Shown here: positions 1,735 to 9,776 of the stretch, one piece after another
How the letters are laid out: each line of letters opens with the position of its first letter
How positions within the stretch are numbered: position 1 is the stretch's first letter
Assembly: GCA_913061285.1 (NCBI GenBank)
Contig: CAJXVR010000028.1
Span: forward strand, 1 to 38,122
Reading direction: 5' to 3'
DNA length: 38,122 nt
From: an uncultured Verrucomicrobiota bacterium
Lineage (GTDB): Bacteria > Verrucomicrobiota > Verrucomicrobiia > Limisphaerales > AAA164-E04
Notes under the pieces: generated by a model
Database searches by the model: none
What the model was told of the DNA's origin: nothing
The model's input: only the letters and a program-made list of their open reading frames with translations
Translations under genes and position numbers: made by a program

Positions 1735-1757
1735 TTCTAACGGGCAAAATTCAAAAC

Positions 1758-1788
1758 GGGGCGAGCAAAGGGCTCGCCCCTTTTTTTT
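1758..1788 (+). terminator. Rho-independent terminator
   Basis: GGGGCGAGC-AAAGG-GCTCGCCCC (9-bp perfect stem) followed by T8, 24 nt after the stop at 1734. Confidence 0.92.
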
Positions 1789-1856
1789 CTTCAAAAACTG
1801 TTGAGAAGCGGCGAAAGAAGAGCCTTCGCTGCCCACCAAACTCAGGGCACTTCAAC

Positions 1857-1890
1857 TTCACAACTGATAAAGGACGTTATCATATGTGAA
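1857..1890 (+). other. Candidate tyrosine-recombinase core site (att-like), copy 1
   Basis: TTCACAACTGATAA-AGGACG-TTATCATATGTGAA: 14-bp arms matching at 12/14 positions around a 6-nt asymmetric spacer, 23 nt upstream of the recombinase ATG. Confidence 0.5.
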
Positions 1891-1913
1891 AACAACCTGA
1901 ATAGGGGACCTAA

Positions 1914-2906
1914 ATGGAACTGACCACAATCGATCAAAGAGGCCTTGAGGTCTCCTCAGCAAACGCCCTCTTCATGGGAAAACCCTTTCCTTCTCCTATT
2001 GCCCAGGCCGGAAAGTCTGCCGTTGAGCGATTTGTGGAATTCTTCTTGGTTCGGATTGAGAATCTTAACACTCGCCGTGCTTATGGTCGGGCTGCGCTTC
2101 GGTTTCTGAATTGGATGGAAGATCACGGACTTGCGCTCGAGGCCGTCAGGCCCGTTCACGTGGCTGCATATATTGAATCGCTGAAAACTGAATTGGCTGC
2201 TCCTTCTGTGAAGCAGCAACTCGCGTCGATACGGGAATTGTTTGATTGGCTCGTCGTTGGCCAGATTGTTCCGATGAATCCGGCATCTTCTGTTCGTGGA
2301 CCGAAGCACAGCACCAATAAAGGTAAGACGATTGATCTGTCTGCTGCCGATACGCGATTGTTGCTGGATTCGATCGATACCTCCCATGTTCGAGGTCTCC
2401 GCGATCGGGCGCTCATCGCGGCCTTGGTTTATTCCTGCGCCCGTGTTGGGGCCGTCGTTAAGATGCGGGTCGAAGACTATTACCCCAAAGGGAAACGCTG
2501 GTGGTTCCGGCTTCACGAAAAAGGCGGTAAGGAACACGAAGTCCCAGCTCATCACTTGGCCGAAGCCTATCTTGATGAATACATCAGGACTACGGGGATA
2601 TCCGAAGACCCGAAGGGTCCCCTCTTCCGGAGCTGTAAAGGACGGTCATCAACGCTTGGGACAGGTGGCCTTGAACAGAGCAATGTTTATCAGATGATCC
2701 GGAAGCGAGCAATCGAGGCCGGGATTGCTGACAAGATTGGATGCCACACTTTTCGTGCGACGGGGATTACGGTGTTTCTGAAGAACGGCGGTGACTTGGA
2801 AACTGCTCAGCACATGGCTAACCATGCTTCAGCTCGGACGACTAAACTCTACGATCGGCGGAGTGATGAGATTTCGTTGGAAGCTGTGGAGAGAATTTGG
2901 ATCTGA
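1914..2906 (+). CDS. Tyrosine recombinase / phage integrase family protein
   Basis: N-terminal SAM-like domain (NTRRAYGRAALRFLNWMEDHG) and catalytic C-terminus HTFRATGITVFLKNGGDLETAQHMANHASARTTKLYDRR (HxxR...H...Y). Confidence 0.95.
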   Translation: MELTTIDQRGLEVSSANALFMGKPFPSPIAQAGKSAVERFVEFFLVRIENLNTRRAYGRAALRFLNWMEDHGLALEAVRPVHVAAYIESLKTELAAPSVKQQLASIRELFDWLVVGQIVPMNPASSVRGPKHSTNKGKTIDLSAADTRLLLDSIDTSHVRGLRDRALIAALVYSCARVGAVVKMRVEDYYPKGKRWWFRLHEKGGKEHEVPAHHLAEAYLDEYIRTTGISEDPKGPLFRSCKGRSSTLGTGGLEQSNVYQMIRKRAIEAGIADKIGCHTFRATGITVFLKNGGDLETAQHMANHASARTTKLYDRRSDEISLEAVERIWI

Positions 2907-3005
2907 TATTCTCTTCGAGAATACTGCGGCCATTGTTCTCAGGACCGATCAAACGAAATGTGAGATCCTCTGTCTAAAAAAGAGGTGTGTGTCTGAAATC
3001 TAATA

Positions 3006-3809
3006 ATGAATAAGAGAGCACAAATTTCTGAAGGCTTCACCCTAGTGGAATTGCTGGTTGTGATAAGTGTAATCGCTCTCCTGGCGACCCTGATCTTCTC
3101 TGGAGTATCGTATGCTCACTTTCGATCCCGAGTCACCGGATGTACGAACAACTACAAGCAGATTACGTTATCGGCGAACATGTATGCATCGGATGATCCC
3201 AATGAGCGGTTGCCATCGTTCGAGTTGCCAACCCAGACCACTCAACTGATTAGGTTTCAGAATCTCTATCCATGGCTGCTAGCTCTCCCCATGTTATCTG
3301 AAATGGATAAGCATGGAGTTTCGTCCCCTAAGCAGTGGTTCTGTCCTCTTCAGCCAAAACTTTCGAAGGCTCTTGAATCCAACTTTCAAATCGTCAAGGG
3401 GCGAACCATGACATCGATTGCAGACCTAACAACAGGATTTGAAGAAATACAAGGTTCTAGGTATGCCTCTGTGGGTTTGTTCTGGTGGGTTCCACGAAAG
3501 TTACAGGGAAGTGATAGTCTGACATATCCAGAGGTTAGTCTCCTCAAGACTAGAGAAAGTAATCCATGGCCTTCAAGACTCAGCGATACAAGCGTTTCAA
3601 GTCGACCGATTGTGACCGATAAGATGGTCGGAGAAAAAGCGATTTCTGGTGACGGATTCCTCAGCGCACACGGTGGTCATACGTTTCGAGGGAAAATTCG
3701 GAACTCCAATTCAGGGTATGCTGATGGTCACGTAGAAACACGCAAAGCAGAATCTCTGAAGTGGGAGCTACAGTTTACCGATGAATTTAGCAACTATGCC
3801 TTCTACTAA
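3006..3809 (+). CDS. Type II secretion-like pseudopilin with prepilin N-terminal methylation motif
   Basis: GFTLVELLVVISVIALLATLIFSG N-terminus; C-terminal HGGHTFRGKIRNSNSGYADGHVE, as in PVC H-X9-DG pseudopilins. Confidence 0.85.
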   Translation: MNKRAQISEGFTLVELLVVISVIALLATLIFSGVSYAHFRSRVTGCTNNYKQITLSANMYASDDPNERLPSFELPTQTTQLIRFQNLYPWLLALPMLSEMDKHGVSSPKQWFCPLQPKLSKALESNFQIVKGRTMTSIADLTTGFEEIQGSRYASVGLFWWVPRKLQGSDSLTYPEVSLLKTRESNPWPSRLSDTSVSSRPIVTDKMVGEKAISGDGFLSAHGGHTFRGKIRNSNSGYADGHVETRKAESLKWELQFTDEFSNYAFY

Positions 3810-4101
3810 GGCTCCGAAAACATACCATAATCTTAAGGCCTAGCAGCAGCAAAGGTCATCCACTTGGTCAGTCCGGAAAGGAACTTCCAGTAAACACTAT
3901 CAACGACTACTGAAAGCGTTTGGCCCTCTCCTGCAGCTTGGGGAGGGATTCTCAACTTTTCCCATATTGCTCTGACATTGAGGGGACCAACTAATTTAGG
4001 CAGCTGATTTTATCATAAATAGTCAAGAATGAGAGGGGAGCCTAAAGATACTTTCCAATCCGGCTACTTTGCTAAGTTTGTGATTCATTAATCCCGTAGT
4101 C

Positions 4102-5268
4102 TTGAATAACCTTACCTACATGCCAGGTGAGGAAGAAAACGACCAAGTGAAGCCCGAAGAATTGCCCAAGCCTATTCGATACGATATTGATCAGTATCTC
4201 AACAAGGCTATCGAGAAACGCGCTAAGGTTCTTGCTGGGATTCTCAGTCTAAAACTCTTTGGCGGCTGGTTCTCGATTCAGGCCTTAGTGAAGGATTTTG
4301 CAACTACAGTTACGACTCAGAAGCTTTCAGACATGTCTGGGGACGTGCAACACCAGTTGCGACACTTTCAATCGTGGTCGGAGGCCCTCCGAGTAAGAGT
4401 CGATAAAAACCAAATCCACATAGCTTCTGGACTAAAACAATCAGTAGCAGCCCAACTACAGTTGAGTAACTCGCAGGCAAGTCTTTCCTTGTTGTTAACC
4501 AATGTGACCCAGGCAGCGGACTCTGCCCTCCGACATGTAGAATCTCAGGAACAATCGGTGGCTACGAAGGTTCGCGAGCTTACTACTAATGCAACGAACG
4601 AAGTGGAATTTCTTAAGAATAATATTAAAAATCGCGTTGCTGACCTTGATCGCAAGGAAAGCGAGATTGTGTCCGGATTGCTGAAAGACAAAGACTTCCA
4701 ATCGAGAATATCCGAGATAAGTAGTAGCGTCGCTCCACTTGGTGAAAAAGTCGAATCGTTGATTCCGGTTGGCACAATATTCCCATACTACGGCACAACA
4801 AATACAGTGCTTGTTGGATATGTGTTCTGCGACAGACGATGGATATCAAAGCGAACCCATAAAAAGCTGTTTGATCATTTGCTAAATCTCAATATCTCTG
4901 GAGAAGAACAGCTCGAACTTGATAAAGATGGAGAGAGAATACGGGTTCCGGATCTTCGGGGGATGTTTCTTAGAGGACTAGATAAACGGATTGAGGGCTC
5001 TCAAGATCCATGGAGTAGCGAGAATAGAAATGAGGCGCGACGCTTGGGGAGCCGTCAGCCTAGCGCCGTTGGCCCACATAAGCATCCTGTTTTGCTTCGA
5101 GGAATTAAGGGAATCGGAGTTGTTGGTGGAGAAAGTGCTGCTGCTGTAGATCCATCTGGAGGGACGACGAACACGAAACTAAATTTAGCAGAGGTATCAG
5201 TCCCTGAACCACAATTTTCAGAGTCTCGACCAAAGAATGCGGCGGTGAACTTCATTATCAAACATTGA
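4102..5268 (+). CDS. Coiled-coil protein with C-terminal phage tail-collar-like domain (start may be ATG 4120)
   Basis: C-terminus VGTIFPYYG...GYVFCDRRW...IRVPDLRGMFLRGLDKR...SAVGPHKHPV...AAVNFIIKH resembles tail collar domains; long heptad-like region before it. TTG start at 4102, ATG at 4120. Confidence 0.72.
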   Translation: MNNLTYMPGEEENDQVKPEELPKPIRYDIDQYLNKAIEKRAKVLAGILSLKLFGGWFSIQALVKDFATTVTTQKLSDMSGDVQHQLRHFQSWSEALRVRVDKNQIHIASGLKQSVAAQLQLSNSQASLSLLLTNVTQAADSALRHVESQEQSVATKVRELTTNATNEVEFLKNNIKNRVADLDRKESEIVSGLLKDKDFQSRISEISSSVAPLGEKVESLIPVGTIFPYYGTTNTVLVGYVFCDRRWISKRTHKKLFDHLLNLNISGEEQLELDKDGERIRVPDLRGMFLRGLDKRIEGSQDPWSSENRNEARRLGSRQPSAVGPHKHPVLLRGIKGIGVVGGESAAAVDPSGGTTNTKLNLAEVSVPEPQFSESRPKNAAVNFIIKH

Positions 5269-5300
5269 GGAGATTTGGTCTTCAGTAGAAAATGTGTGGA

Positions 5301-5327
5301 ATTAACGCCTTTTAAAGAAGCGTTAAT
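5301..5327 (+). repeat. Inverted repeat / stem-loop after the collar gene (possible terminator without U-tract)
   Basis: ATTAACGC - 11 nt - GCGTTAAT perfect 8-bp arms. Confidence 0.5.
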
Positions 5328-5356
5328 CGTCCCACTCTGCTGGCGCGAGATTCCAA

Positions 5357-5384
5357 AAGTAACATAAAGGACGTTATGTTACTT
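5357..5384 (+). other. Candidate tyrosine-recombinase core site (att-like), copy 2
   Basis: AAGTAACATAA-AGGACG-TTATGTTACTT: 11-bp perfect arms around the same spacer AGGACG in the same orientation as copy 1; shared 14-mer ATAAAGGACGTTAT. Confidence 0.5.
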
Positions 5385-5431
5385 AATAACACACAAGAGG
5401 GGGCGCGTAAAGCGGTTGCCGGTTCGGAACT

Positions 5432-5662
5432 TCACGGTTTCTTATTCTCTTTCTGTCGAAGGAATACCTCAAGGTTACTTCGGGTCCCCTTCGTATTTGG
5501 GTCAGTTGGTCCGAGGAGTTTCTCAAACAAATCTAAGGATTGAACAAGCAACGGCTCGGTTTCTTCATATCTCCCTTGAGCGCGATACAATGCCGCCAGG
5601 TTGTTGAGGCTTGAGGCCACATCAGGATGCTCCGTGCCCAAGAGCTTGCGACTCATCTCCAA
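5432..5662 (-). pseudogene. Truncated kinesin-light-chain-type TPR protein (C-terminal remnant)
   Basis: SRKLLGTEHPDVASSLNNLAALYRAQGRYEETEPLLVQSLDLFEKLLGPTDPNTKGTRSNLE; only about 1.5 repeats, and the in-frame sequence upstream no longer looks like TPR. Confidence 0.75.
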
Positions 5663-5922
5663 GCCTTGGAGATGGATTACGCTGATTCGAATCTTGTGGT
5701 CCAGGTCTGTGATATGCCGGTGCCTCGGTGTTCGTTCTCTCCAATCATTGTAAACACTCCGGCTTAGTCCATGTCTCGAACTGGGTGACGCAGCGCATCC
5801 CTAAACTAGCCACTATTGATAACACTGGATATATTCTTGACTTGATACTCTTACCACGCTTTCTTAAGTTAGTTAACAACGAGTTTTTAGCAAACCTTCA
5901 CCGGAGACTGATTTAGGCAATA

Positions 5923-6537
5923 ATGAAAAATACTTTTTTTAAGAACAGATATATTGCAACGCAAGCACGACTACTTAGAGGCACGCTAAAAAATGGAATC
6001 GGCATTCTTTTCATTCTTAGCCTGCTTATCAGCAGCCAAGGATACGGTAACACAGTAGCAGCATATAAAGCGACTTGTGATCTTCGGAGGGATAATCGCG
6101 CTGCCGCAGCAGATAGGGACAATTTAATCGAACATGATAGAGCAACCCGAGATAAAAACCTTGGGCTAGCCAGAATACAAGGGGAGAGAAATCTTGCAGA
6201 GGATTCAGCCGAATCGACATATCTGATTTCCCTCGCGACGATCCTTGCGACCTACGAGGCAGAGGAAGCTGCATGTTACCTTTTGGCGGGTCCTGGAGTT
6301 GGCCCCTGCATTGCGGCAGCCAAAGCACTCAATATTGCACTCACGGCAGCTGCCTACAACATCTACAGGCTAGCAATGGAAGCAGCTGAATTTAATTACA
6401 ACACAGAGAAAGCAAGCATAATGAATGAGTGGCAAGATCGTCTAGAAGATGCAGACAATTTGCTAGCTGATGCCATGTTCCTGATAAATAGCACGCACAC
6501 GGATTGTATAAGCGGCGCAGCTAACCACACTCACTAG
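5923..6537 (+). CDS. Hypothetical secreted or membrane-anchored Ala-rich protein
   Basis: Hydrophobic N-terminal segment (GIGILFILSLLISSQGYG) followed by an Ala/charged helical region; not recognised. Confidence 0.6.
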   Translation: MKNTFFKNRYIATQARLLRGTLKNGIGILFILSLLISSQGYGNTVAAYKATCDLRRDNRAAAADRDNLIEHDRATRDKNLGLARIQGERNLAEDSAESTYLISLATILATYEAEEAACYLLAGPGVGPCIAAAKALNIALTAAAYNIYRLAMEAAEFNYNTEKASIMNEWQDRLEDADNLLADAMFLINSTHTDCISGAANHTH

Positions 6538-6588
6538 CGGGCATCCGTCTAAAGCTTTCCAAATTTTTATTAATGTATTTATTGCTTT

Positions 6589-7005
6589 ATGAAAGGACTC
6601 AATATAGTGCATTGCACCACAGAGGAGCAAAGGAATATTGTGAAAGCGTGCAATAGTGCCCTTAAACAATATTACCATGCCTATCGTTTGAGCTTATTGG
6701 TGTTTCCATTCATTGTTCTCACTCTTGTTGTCGTGGCTGCCGCAATTGGTTTTTTCCCTGAATATATTGCCATCTCATCGTTCGTATTGTTGTTGCTACT
6801 TCGCCTTTTACCAGGTGATGCTTCCGGTGTTTTCAGTTATGCTCTTGTTGGTGTTAACTACGCTAGCTACCAATCGGCAATTCTGAAGATGCTTGGAGAA
6901 ACGCAGATGCAATTGCAGGCCTCAGGCCTGATTATGACACCGGACGAATGGGATGGGGTTGTGCGAGAGGCATGCGGAGAACACTGGTCTACAGTAGAAG
7001 CGTAA
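6589..7005 (+). CDS. Hypothetical protein with about two predicted transmembrane segments
   Basis: LSLLVFPFIVLTLVVVAAAIGFF and YIAISSFVLLLLLRLLPG hydrophobic stretches; not recognised. Confidence 0.55.
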   Translation: MKGLNIVHCTTEEQRNIVKACNSALKQYYHAYRLSLLVFPFIVLTLVVVAAAIGFFPEYIAISSFVLLLLLRLLPGDASGVFSYALVGVNYASYQSAILKMLGETQMQLQASGLIMTPDEWDGVVREACGEHWSTVEA

Positions 7006-7125
7006 GAGCTGGAACACCGTTGCTATTGGCGGATATTGAAGCTGCTTAGAAAACGCCCCTGAACGGCTTGGCGAAAGTATGTCATAGTTGAATAATGACT
7101 TTTAACCTATAAACAGAGAATCCAA

Positions 7126-7791
7126 ATGAATCAGAAATTATTGACCCTAGCCGTTGTTGCAGTGTTGTTTGTCATTGTGCCAGACCGATTGTTCGGGCAG
7201 GCAAAAGAAAACAGTCAAAGTAAGTCCGCTATTCAAGCAATCCTTGACAGTCTTCCGAACGATGCATTTTTGAAATCTATGGCGAACAGTGGTATTTCTC
7301 ATCCTGATGTTCAAGGTGACTCCGAAAGGGGACCACTAAACGCTGAGGTTTTTGATTTAGTAAATACTGCTGTGTCTTCATTGAAGGATGAAGACACGGA
7401 TACATGGCATCGGGCATTACGAAATCAAAGGAAACAATTTGAAGATATTTCGAGCCTTTTAGGTGTAGGTGAACCGCAAACCCGCGATGCTGCACTTATG
7501 AAGGATATGATTCTTGAATTTTCGACGGCAACAATTCTTAAATCCAAAAAGGCCAGTAAGGCTAGCCGGGAAGAGACAGCTACAGAGAACGAACGGTTAG
7601 ATAAAGAGCTGAACGTCAAGAGGACTAAAAGGCTTGCGACGGCTAAAGTGCGAGAAGCTTCGATTCTTAAACACGAGAAATATTTAAGTGAAAAATTTGG
7701 GGTTTCAAAGGCAGAGTTGCGAGGGATGAAAGATGATGCGGACGATTGGTATGCAGAATTTAAACGCAGCCGTAAACGTGTTTCAGAGTAA
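7126..7791 (+). CDS. Hypothetical secreted protein
   Basis: Signal-peptide-like N-terminus MNQKLLTLAVVAVLFVIVPDRLFGQA; Lys-rich helical C-terminus; not recognised. Confidence 0.6.
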   Translation: MNQKLLTLAVVAVLFVIVPDRLFGQAKENSQSKSAIQAILDSLPNDAFLKSMANSGISHPDVQGDSERGPLNAEVFDLVNTAVSSLKDEDTDTWHRALRNQRKQFEDISSLLGVGEPQTRDAALMKDMILEFSTATILKSKKASKASREETATENERLDKELNVKRTKRLATAKVREASILKHEKYLSEKFGVSKAELRGMKDDADDWYAEFKRSRKRVSE

Positions 7792-7843
7792 TCTCTGTCG
7801 CCCCCCGGGGTGCAACAGATTGGTTGTGTTGTGTTTCCGACGA

Positions 7844-8053
7844 TTATAAGGAGATTTCTTTTAGCAAAGTCGCGGTCTTAGCCTGATAGCTGTCGGTCGT
7901 CGTGATTGTAGTATAGGTGAAGCCAAGTGCAGACATGTAAGCCTTGTGAACTTGCTCGGCGGGAATGACTTGGCCATTGAATTCCAGATCGCGCGACGAG
8001 CAGGCATCTTGACCAGAGTCCGACGCTTCTCCTTCAACCGTGAAACAAGGGTA
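7844..8053 (-). pseudogene. Start-less open reading frame remnant of an unidentified protein
   Basis: In-frame translation after a TGA: YPCFTVEGEASDSGQDACSSRDLEFNGQVIPAEQVHKAYMSALGFTYTTITTTDSYQAKTATLLKEISL*. Protein-like composition, no plausible start; differs from the listed 66-aa ORF, which is in another frame. Confidence 0.4.
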
Positions 8054-8259
8054 TCACCCATATTCGTGCGAAATGGACCAATAAGCGGTGCTTATCTGGG
8101 CTCTAAGGTCTGACGAGCCTGGACGGAAGAGAGCTCTGATTAGGTGTGCGTTCCCAGATTTTCTACTAAGGAATCCTCTGTCCATTTTCTCAGAACTTAT
8201 CGGATCGCTTAACACATTTTACGTTCCATTGCTCCATAAATCCGATATACCTTTCGGGT

Positions 8260-8622
8260 ATGATGAAAAAAACACTCTATATTCCAGCTATCCGGGTAGT
8301 ATTTCTCAGCATCCTCCTAATCAACTTGGCTACCGGATGTGGAGGGTCGTCAAAATATGCCTACGCCAGCTCAGACACAACAGAAGGTGAAGCGTTTCTC
8401 AAAGAGGCCTCTGAAAAGTGGGGCGAGGTAAAGCTTATGGCTACAGCAGCTTACTGGAAGGAAAAAGGAGAAGCGTTCGATTCAGCAACCGTTCAAAAAC
8501 ATATTCAGGATATTCAGGCAGCAATTTCAGAGCAATTTCATGCGCTACTAAAGAAGAAGAAACTTTCAAAAAGCCAAGCCGATCGTTACTTAGAAATTCT
8601 TAAACATGCTAGTAGCCAGTAA
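8260..8622 (+). CDS. Small hypothetical lipoprotein
   Basis: MMKKTLYIPAIRVVFLSILLINLATGCGGSS: signal peptide with lipobox-like ATGC. Confidence 0.65.
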   Translation: MMKKTLYIPAIRVVFLSILLINLATGCGGSSKYAYASSDTTEGEAFLKEASEKWGEVKLMATAAYWKEKGEAFDSATVQKHIQDIQAAISEQFHALLKKKKLSKSQADRYLEILKHASSQ

Positions 8623-9046
8623 ATACCTATCTGATACGAGATGATCGGTCCTGAGTAAAGTGGACACGGGATTCCCTTATTTCGCACAAGATCACTTAGA
8701 TTTAATCCCGTCATCGGAAACTGTTGCCGAGACCGATGCTCTCTCACCTGTCCCACAAAGAAGAAGGTTCGCGAAATTACTGACTTCCCTTTTCAACTGA
8801 AACCCGATCATTAGCATCTGAAACATGACGGTCCTCATGTGATGCCAGTCCTGCCGTTTTTCAAATCAATCTAGGGTCCCCTTTTTTCGCTCTCGAATGT
8901 TCCGCGATCCTTGAAAAACGTCGAGAATCTGAATCTCGTTCTCAAGACTTCGGTAGAAAATCAAATACCTTCGAAACTCAGTAACGACAATCTTCCGAAC
9001 ATCATTCAGCTCGGTCTAGGACACTTTATCTCCATAACCGCATGGG

Positions 9047-9757
9047 CTACGGTTTATCGATCACGAGCCGACAAATCACTGTGTTGTGAATCTTTAAATC
9101 AGAGCTCCAGATAAACTTCGCCGAACGATCCCAACGGATCCGATCATAGCCATCTTTGGGACGCACTTCCTGCTTACTAAACTCGGTCACAGCCTCCCAG
9201 GACTGATCGTCAAACCCAGCGGCTTTCCATCCCGCAGGTTCCTCTCGCTCAAGGAAGCCACAAGGACCACTCCCCGCTTGAGGGTTGCGTTCGTGTGCAC
9301 AATCAGGATCCAACGGGGCCTCATGGAGAACAAAACACTTCCAATTTCGATCCGTCACGGCGATCACCTCTCCGGTGTCAACATTGGTGAATTGAGCAAT
9401 CAAGCCTCCATCACCAATCTGTTGACGCCGTGATCCGATATATTCCAGACCGGTATCATTCTGCTTAAAATCCTTCACGACAAAGTTCAGCACCAGCGGA
9501 TAGTCTCCCGAGAATTCAAAACTCTCAGCATTAAACGAGCGCTCAGTCGTGATCGGAACTGAGTCCTCAACAACCAGTTCTTCACCTAAATAGAGCTGGA
9601 ACCAATTATCCGCCCAAACCTCGCCGCGAATAGTGACTGCCCCTTCATTGACCGCCGTCTTTCGGGCCTCAACGGGTGCCCGCCCACAACTCACCAAGAG
9701 CATCGTGAGCAATGTGTATCCGAGGTATTTCATTCTATTCATCGCTACGTTATTCAC
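9047..9757 (-). CDS. Hypothetical lipoprotein
   Basis: MKYLGYTLLTMLLVSCGRA lipobox; GWKAAGFDDQSWEAVTEF motif typical of beta-sandwich modules. Confidence 0.7.
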   Translation of the reverse strand: MNNVAMNRMKYLGYTLLTMLLVSCGRAPVEARKTAVNEGAVTIRGEVWADNWFQLYLGEELVVEDSVPITTERSFNAESFEFSGDYPLVLNFVVKDFKQNDTGLEYIGSRRQQIGDGGLIAQFTNVDTGEVIAVTDRNWKCFVLHEAPLDPDCAHERNPQAGSGPCGFLEREEPAGWKAAGFDDQSWEAVTEFSKQEVRPKDGYDRIRWDRSAKFIWSSDLKIHNTVICRLVIDKP

Positions 9758-9776
9758 GTTTGAAAACAGCTATCAA

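Follow-up and report, generated by a model that had tools for sequence, protein, structure and literature searches.

Two inverted repeats with the same 6-bp centre lie around a tyrosine recombinase gene in a 38,122-bp contig of an uncultured Verrucomicrobiota bacterium (CAJXVR010000028.1, referred to here in full as the window). This arrangement raises the question of whether the segment between them (1857–5384) is itself mobile. An initial annotation had read it as a minimal integrative element. Our analysis did not bear this out. The recombinase gene (1914–2906) and the first repeat, S1, probably form a horizontally acquired plasmid-type site-specific recombination module of the single-recombinase (Xer/Cre-like) kind.

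S1 (1857–1890, + strand) is a predicted core recombination site with the sequence TTCACAACTGATAA-AGGACG-TTATCATATGTGAA. Its arms of 11 and 14 bp flank the AGGACG spacer (core 1867–1880) and are of the GATAA..TTATC class. The recombinase start codon (ATG, 1914) follows 23 nt after the end of S1, the predicted cognate site of this enzyme. S2 (5357–5384, + strand), a predicted second core site, reads AAGTAACATAA-AGGACG-TTATGTTACTT and is a perfect 11/11 dyad with arms of the CATAA..TTATG class. S1 and S2 have the 14-mer ATAAAGGACGTTAT in common in the same orientation, with a core-to-core distance of 3,497 bp. The positions, shared spacer, orientation, and ~3.5 kb spacing given in the initial annotation were thus all reproduced. 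ATAA-N6-TTAT occurs twice in the window, compared with 0.21 occurrences expected. The whole 8-Mb genome, a draft of 570 contigs, contains this pattern at 38 places, and only S1 and S2 carry the AGGACG spacer.

The recombinase (330 aa, + strand) contains a SAM-like core-binding domain and a catalytic domain (PF00589, 2.9e-17). All catalytic residues are present (R177, K203 or K206, H278, R281, H304, and Y313 in alignment numbering), and no arm-binding domain was found in the protein. Among solved structures, XerD and XerA come closest to it, with XerD 1a0p as the top match (3.6e-14). The protein is 53–60% identical to most of its homologues on plasmids and in metagenome-assembled genomes (MAGs), and 56–57% identical to Int1 and Int2 of plasmid pPDL2. 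Homologues with 55–60% identity were found in GTDB genomes and MAGs of Planctomycetota, Acidobacteriota, Armatimonadota, Gemmatimonadota, and Alphaproteobacteria. Overall, homologues are mostly 42–60% identical and extend to phyla including Pseudomonadota. The recombinase was found on 117 PLSDB plasmids at E<1e-60. Close relatives are rare in its own phylum, occurring in 2 of 388 genomes with the window's own counted.

The dyad accompanies the recombinase in most loci of this family. Of 35 recombinase loci, counting the window, 28 have an exact ATAA-AGGAC[A/G]-TTAT core no more than 2.5 kb upstream of the gene. Four further loci have a dyad with ATAA/TTAT inner arms and an altered spacer (AGGGGA, AAGGCG, AGGGTG, or, in G200, GTCATG). 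In a blind test, the best 11-6-11 dyad within 900 nt was picked on arm symmetry alone, ignoring the spacer. The centre of the picked dyad was AGGACR in 22/35 loci but in only 1/350 shuffled sequences. The linkage between site and recombinase is therefore real and general. The spacer appears nearly invariant from Planctomycetota to Pseudomonadota, spanning at least five phyla. The two arm classes, CATAA..TTATG and GATAA..TTATC, cluster on the recombinase tree. Using this tree to assign an arm class to the window protein was rejected because the window row was placed ambiguously. With identities above a 45% threshold over its length and an 11-6-11 dyad with an AGGAC[A/G] spacer upstream (S1), the window recombinase falls within the family. 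Unlike the family norm of one site per replicon, the window has two sites 3.5 kb apart.

Aligned plasmid sequences showed natural crossover at the dyad in Sphingobium. Plasmid pPDL2 of Sphingobium fuliginis ATCC 27551 carries two recombinases with one ATAA-AGGACA-TTAT dyad between them (30.6 of 37.3 kb examined). pPDL2 and pSF4 from the same strain are 100% identical over 3,023 bp ending inside this dyad and are unrelated beyond it. pCFD-2-6 matches pPDL2 at 99.9% identity on the same side of the dyad as pSF4. The Sphingobium yanoikuyae plasmid NZ_CP139982 is 100% identical to pPDL2 over 1 kb on the opposite side, with no match on the pSF4 side. Beyond the dyad, identity among the four Sphingobium plasmids drops to about 27%. 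The pCFD-2-6 site is self-symmetric (ATGTATGATAA-AGGACA-TTATCATACAT), and the pPDL2 site combines the left arm of pCFD-2-6 with a right arm of the S. yanoikuyae type (TTATCACATAT). Strand exchange within the spacer would be expected to yield such hybrid arms. Among Pseudomonas plasmids, too, the dyad edge is where homology begins. Both the conservation of dyad and spacer upstream of homologues across phyla and these crossovers support the initial annotation's view of the dyads as tyrosine-recombinase core sites.

Plasmid context suggests what the module may do. On plasmids, the modules neighbour replication, partition, and toxin–antitoxin genes. Eighteen plasmid records were searched over their whole length. 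Fifteen have a single exact core and three have none, and a reversed control pattern gave no match in any of the 18. Two of the three, both from Singulisphaera, carry the dyad with an altered spacer, and no site was recognised on the third, a Thiothrix plasmid. Second symmetric sites in some MAGs are usually adjoined by a second recombinase (G444, G451, and G457). Plasmid multimer-resolution systems are built in this way, with one symmetric site per replicon and a recombinase close by, and we infer this function for the module. The two 11-bp arms of the dyad would serve as binding sites for recombinase monomers, with strand exchange across the 6-bp AGGACG spacer. On plasmids, the module would most likely resolve multimers, and the common spacer would also allow it to fuse unrelated plasmids at the dyad.

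In the window, the module appears to lie in a chromosome-like locus within an insertion spanning ~8 kb. The scanned open reading frames (ORFs) of the window include no replication or partition gene, and the flanking genes match those of the same locus in a congener, which suggests a chromosomal location. By their types, the flanking genes also hint at a Verrucomicrobiota-like host. In this same-genus genome, G003, the cytochrome gene to the left of S1 and the beta-lactamase gene (9777 in the window) are only ~88 bp apart. This places the variable segment at ~1735–9768, which holds S1, the recombinase, S2, and further genes. A low-GC (guanine plus cytosine) part runs from ~2.9 to 9.0 kb within the segment with no change at S2, and the gene at 9047–9757 has native-like GC. 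The insertion may therefore comprise several events.

S2 is too exact to be a chance occurrence and is a genuine orphan site. Inspection of the sequence next to S2 found neither a recombinase nor a recombinase remnant. A 22-bp exact stretch of S2 recurs ~100 nt or less from homologous recombinases on Skermanella and Rhodovastum plasmids. With its different arms, S2 is a second site of this family and most likely a leftover of another module or replicon. Apart from the window's genome, a phylum-wide search located CATAAAGGACRTTATG at a single place, which is asymmetric and at chance level, and so gave no second two-site case. Similarly, none of the other loci and records examined has two sites flanking one recombinase. 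A fairly symmetric AGGACG site was also observed in an Acidobacteriaceae MAG (G446:C98:13325, ~6326 in L250), where the nearest recombinase is ~3 kb off and 30% identical. The G446 recombinase with its own site sits on a different contig, and the L250 site is possibly a second orphan.

In the model of the initial annotation, recombination of S1 with S2 releases segment 1857–5384 as a circle, which integrates at a single matching site. This model predicts a hybrid empty site, ACAACTGATAA-AGGACG-TTATGTTACTT, and a circle junction, AAGTAACATAA-AGGACG-TTATCATATGT. The equal spacers and orientation, the recombinase inside, and the genuine nature of S2 are all in keeping with it, and a plasmid of this family has been reported to integrate at a cloned attB (PMC3516476). 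However, S1 and S2 are each self-symmetric (9/11 and 11/11), and their cross-symmetry is just 5/11 and 7/11. This is the opposite of what an integration remnant would show, and the two sites are thus not the hybrids expected from integration via S1 and S2. Since the Sphingobium recombinants of differently armed sites are hybrids, the non-hybrid arms count against integration. Furthermore, the related empty locus in G003 lacks ~8 kb rather than 3.5 kb, with ends that differ from S1 and S2, and relatives have a single site per replicon. We consider a 3.5-kb integrative element improbable. Deletion of the 3.5 kb between S1 and S2 by the recombinase would be possible because spacer and orientation agree. 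The recombinase could instead be the integrase of the whole ~8-kb insertion, with S1 and a degenerate half-site as its ends and S2 incidental. This half-site (9747–9768, + strand) is an imperfect copy of the right half of S1 (1874–1894) that abuts the right edge of the insertion, matching at 18/22 positions over 22 nt with one gap. In the published work on pPDL2, Int is also described as an integrase that uses a tRNA-like attB (PMC3516476). Against this, a second, unrelated place in the window reaches the same score (22), so the repeat may be due to chance. The spacer is not kept at 9747, no tRNA was found in the window, and the native-like GC of gene 9047–9757 points to possibly several events. 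An integrase for the whole ~8-kb insertion is quite unlikely.

S1 and S2 could also be relics of two plasmids that fused at their sites into a cointegrate, which later inserted into the chromosome and decayed. Fusions of this kind, with different modules joined at one site, do occur in the family, as pPDL2 shows, and the arm classes of S1 and S2 differ. Direct fusion products would nevertheless have hybrid arms, which S1 and S2 lack, and 1.7–9.8 kb holds no recognisable replication or partition gene. This origin is unlikely, if still worth consideration. The dyad could also be only an operator, either a CopG-type repressor site or a promoter palindrome, and not a recombination site. It does lie upstream of the recombinase or an adjoining small gene, and the pPDL2 authors interpreted inverted repeats upstream of copG genes as CopG repressor sites (PMC3516476). 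An operator is difficult to reconcile with a dyad-to-gene distance varying from ~50 nt to 2.3 kb, with variable orientation, or with small genes that are largely unrelated. The 11-6-11 geometry with its asymmetric, nearly invariant spacer and the natural crossovers inside the dyad also speak against it, making this explanation very unlikely.

Several points weigh against a plasmid-type module for multimer resolution as well. The resolution function is deduced from context, several module-bearing contigs are long and may be chromosomal, and the congener comparison is with a single draft genome. In addition, the 57% identical Int of pPDL2 was published as an integrase, with attP at the 3′ end of int1 rather than at the dyad (PMC3516476). 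That study placed attP by similarity to a seryl-tRNA gene, whereas in our comparison the natural crossover falls at the dyad. It also obtained cointegrates with a cloned attB (PMC3516476), and pPDL2 Int may therefore have integrase activity.

The 'integration module' of pPDL2, built of CopG-Int-Pgm units with Int1 and Int2, is among the closest described counterparts of the window's module and has the ATAA-AGGACA-TTAT dyad between the units. In contrast, the window lacks the CopG and phosphoglycerate mutase partners. As an observation on this plasmid, the two divergent recombinase modules of pPDL2 share a single dyad (8832 in L255), and the published attP lies elsewhere (PMC3516476). Single-recombinase Xer systems such as XerS/difSL, XerH/difH, and XerA/dif use a site of two ~11-bp arms around a short centre (PMC5357621). 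The module resembles these in having one recombinase beside a two-arm site and XerD as best solved-structure match. Unlike the chromosomal Xer systems, the family is plasmid-borne and patchy, and its spacer is AGGACR. The curated cut-offs for XerC, XerD, XerA, and XerS were missed by far (123.8 versus 329.6 bits for XerD, and likewise for the others).

Cre/loxP of P1 and similar multimer-resolution systems combine a plasmid-encoded recombinase with one symmetric site per replicon and an asymmetric spacer. The present family shares these features with Cre/loxP, but its AGGACR spacer is 6 bp rather than 8 bp, and no Cre chain was among the solved-structure matches of the window recombinase. An integron was rejected, as the IntI-type score was 45.8 against a 265-bit cut-off. 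Resolution by Tn3-family TnpI or TnpS/T was likewise rejected, with no Tn3 transposase among the scanned window ORFs or beside the recombinase in plasmid neighbourhoods L064–L067 and L213–L226.

The spacers of tyrosine-recombinase core sites usually differ from lineage to lineage. We tentatively suggest that the AGGACR dyad is instead a common crossover currency, through which plasmids without other homology fuse and trade half-replicons at one point. The window might then show such modules reaching chromosomes and pairing up. In the literature searched, we found no description of the nearly invariant spacer or of a role in plasmid chimerism, and no paper on the site sequence. Crossover at the dyad offers a concrete, testable account of how catabolic plasmids such as pPDL2, which carries opd for organophosphate degradation, assemble. 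It involves a different recombination site from that published for pPDL2 Int, and the dyad would permit plasmid fusion points to be marked automatically.

The surroundings of the recombinase vary across the family. In many proteobacterial plasmids (L064, L065, L067, and L214–L222), a small ORF immediately precedes the recombinase start and often overlaps it. For the most part, these ORFs show no relationship to one another (DUF2513, DUF6650, PaaA2-like, and others), and a conserved small accessory partner gene was therefore rejected. The slot between site and recombinase behaves as if it exchanges genes. A viral origin was also rejected, since no relative was found in IMG/VR and the 14-mer matches in viral contigs are chance-like, essentially without arm symmetry. 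The record ON073792.1 (L212, 'Aphanizomenon phage Yong-DA') contains a family recombinase and a dyad with an AGGGTG spacer amid O-antigen and sugar-nucleotide genes. This stretch looks bacterial or plasmid-like, not phage.

The other genes between S1 and S2 were as initially annotated. A pseudopilin-like protein (3006–3809, + strand) has an N-terminal methylation motif with a PF07963 match at threshold (1.9e-4) and no match on plasmids. A coiled-coil/tail-collar-like protein (4102–5268, + strand) matches phrog_523 (1.3e-18). Just right of S2, a C-terminal fragment of a tetratricopeptide-type protein, assigned by eye from its translation, appears as a pseudogene on the − strand (5433–5690, ends approximate). 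The inverted repeats 2919–2951 and 8642–8674 match at 26/33 positions, with a perfect inner 14 nt (CTCAGGACCGATCA), and frame the low-GC 2.9–8.7 kb. This pair looks like the terminal repeats of a transposon without transposase. An insertion-sequence-like repeat was rejected, as the motif is not present in multiple copies genome-wide. At the left end of the window, positions 8–41 (GTCTCGTGGGCTCGGAGATGTGTATAAGAGACAG) look like a Nextera transposase adapter left untrimmed in the assembly, and the sequence before ~42 is probably non-genomic.

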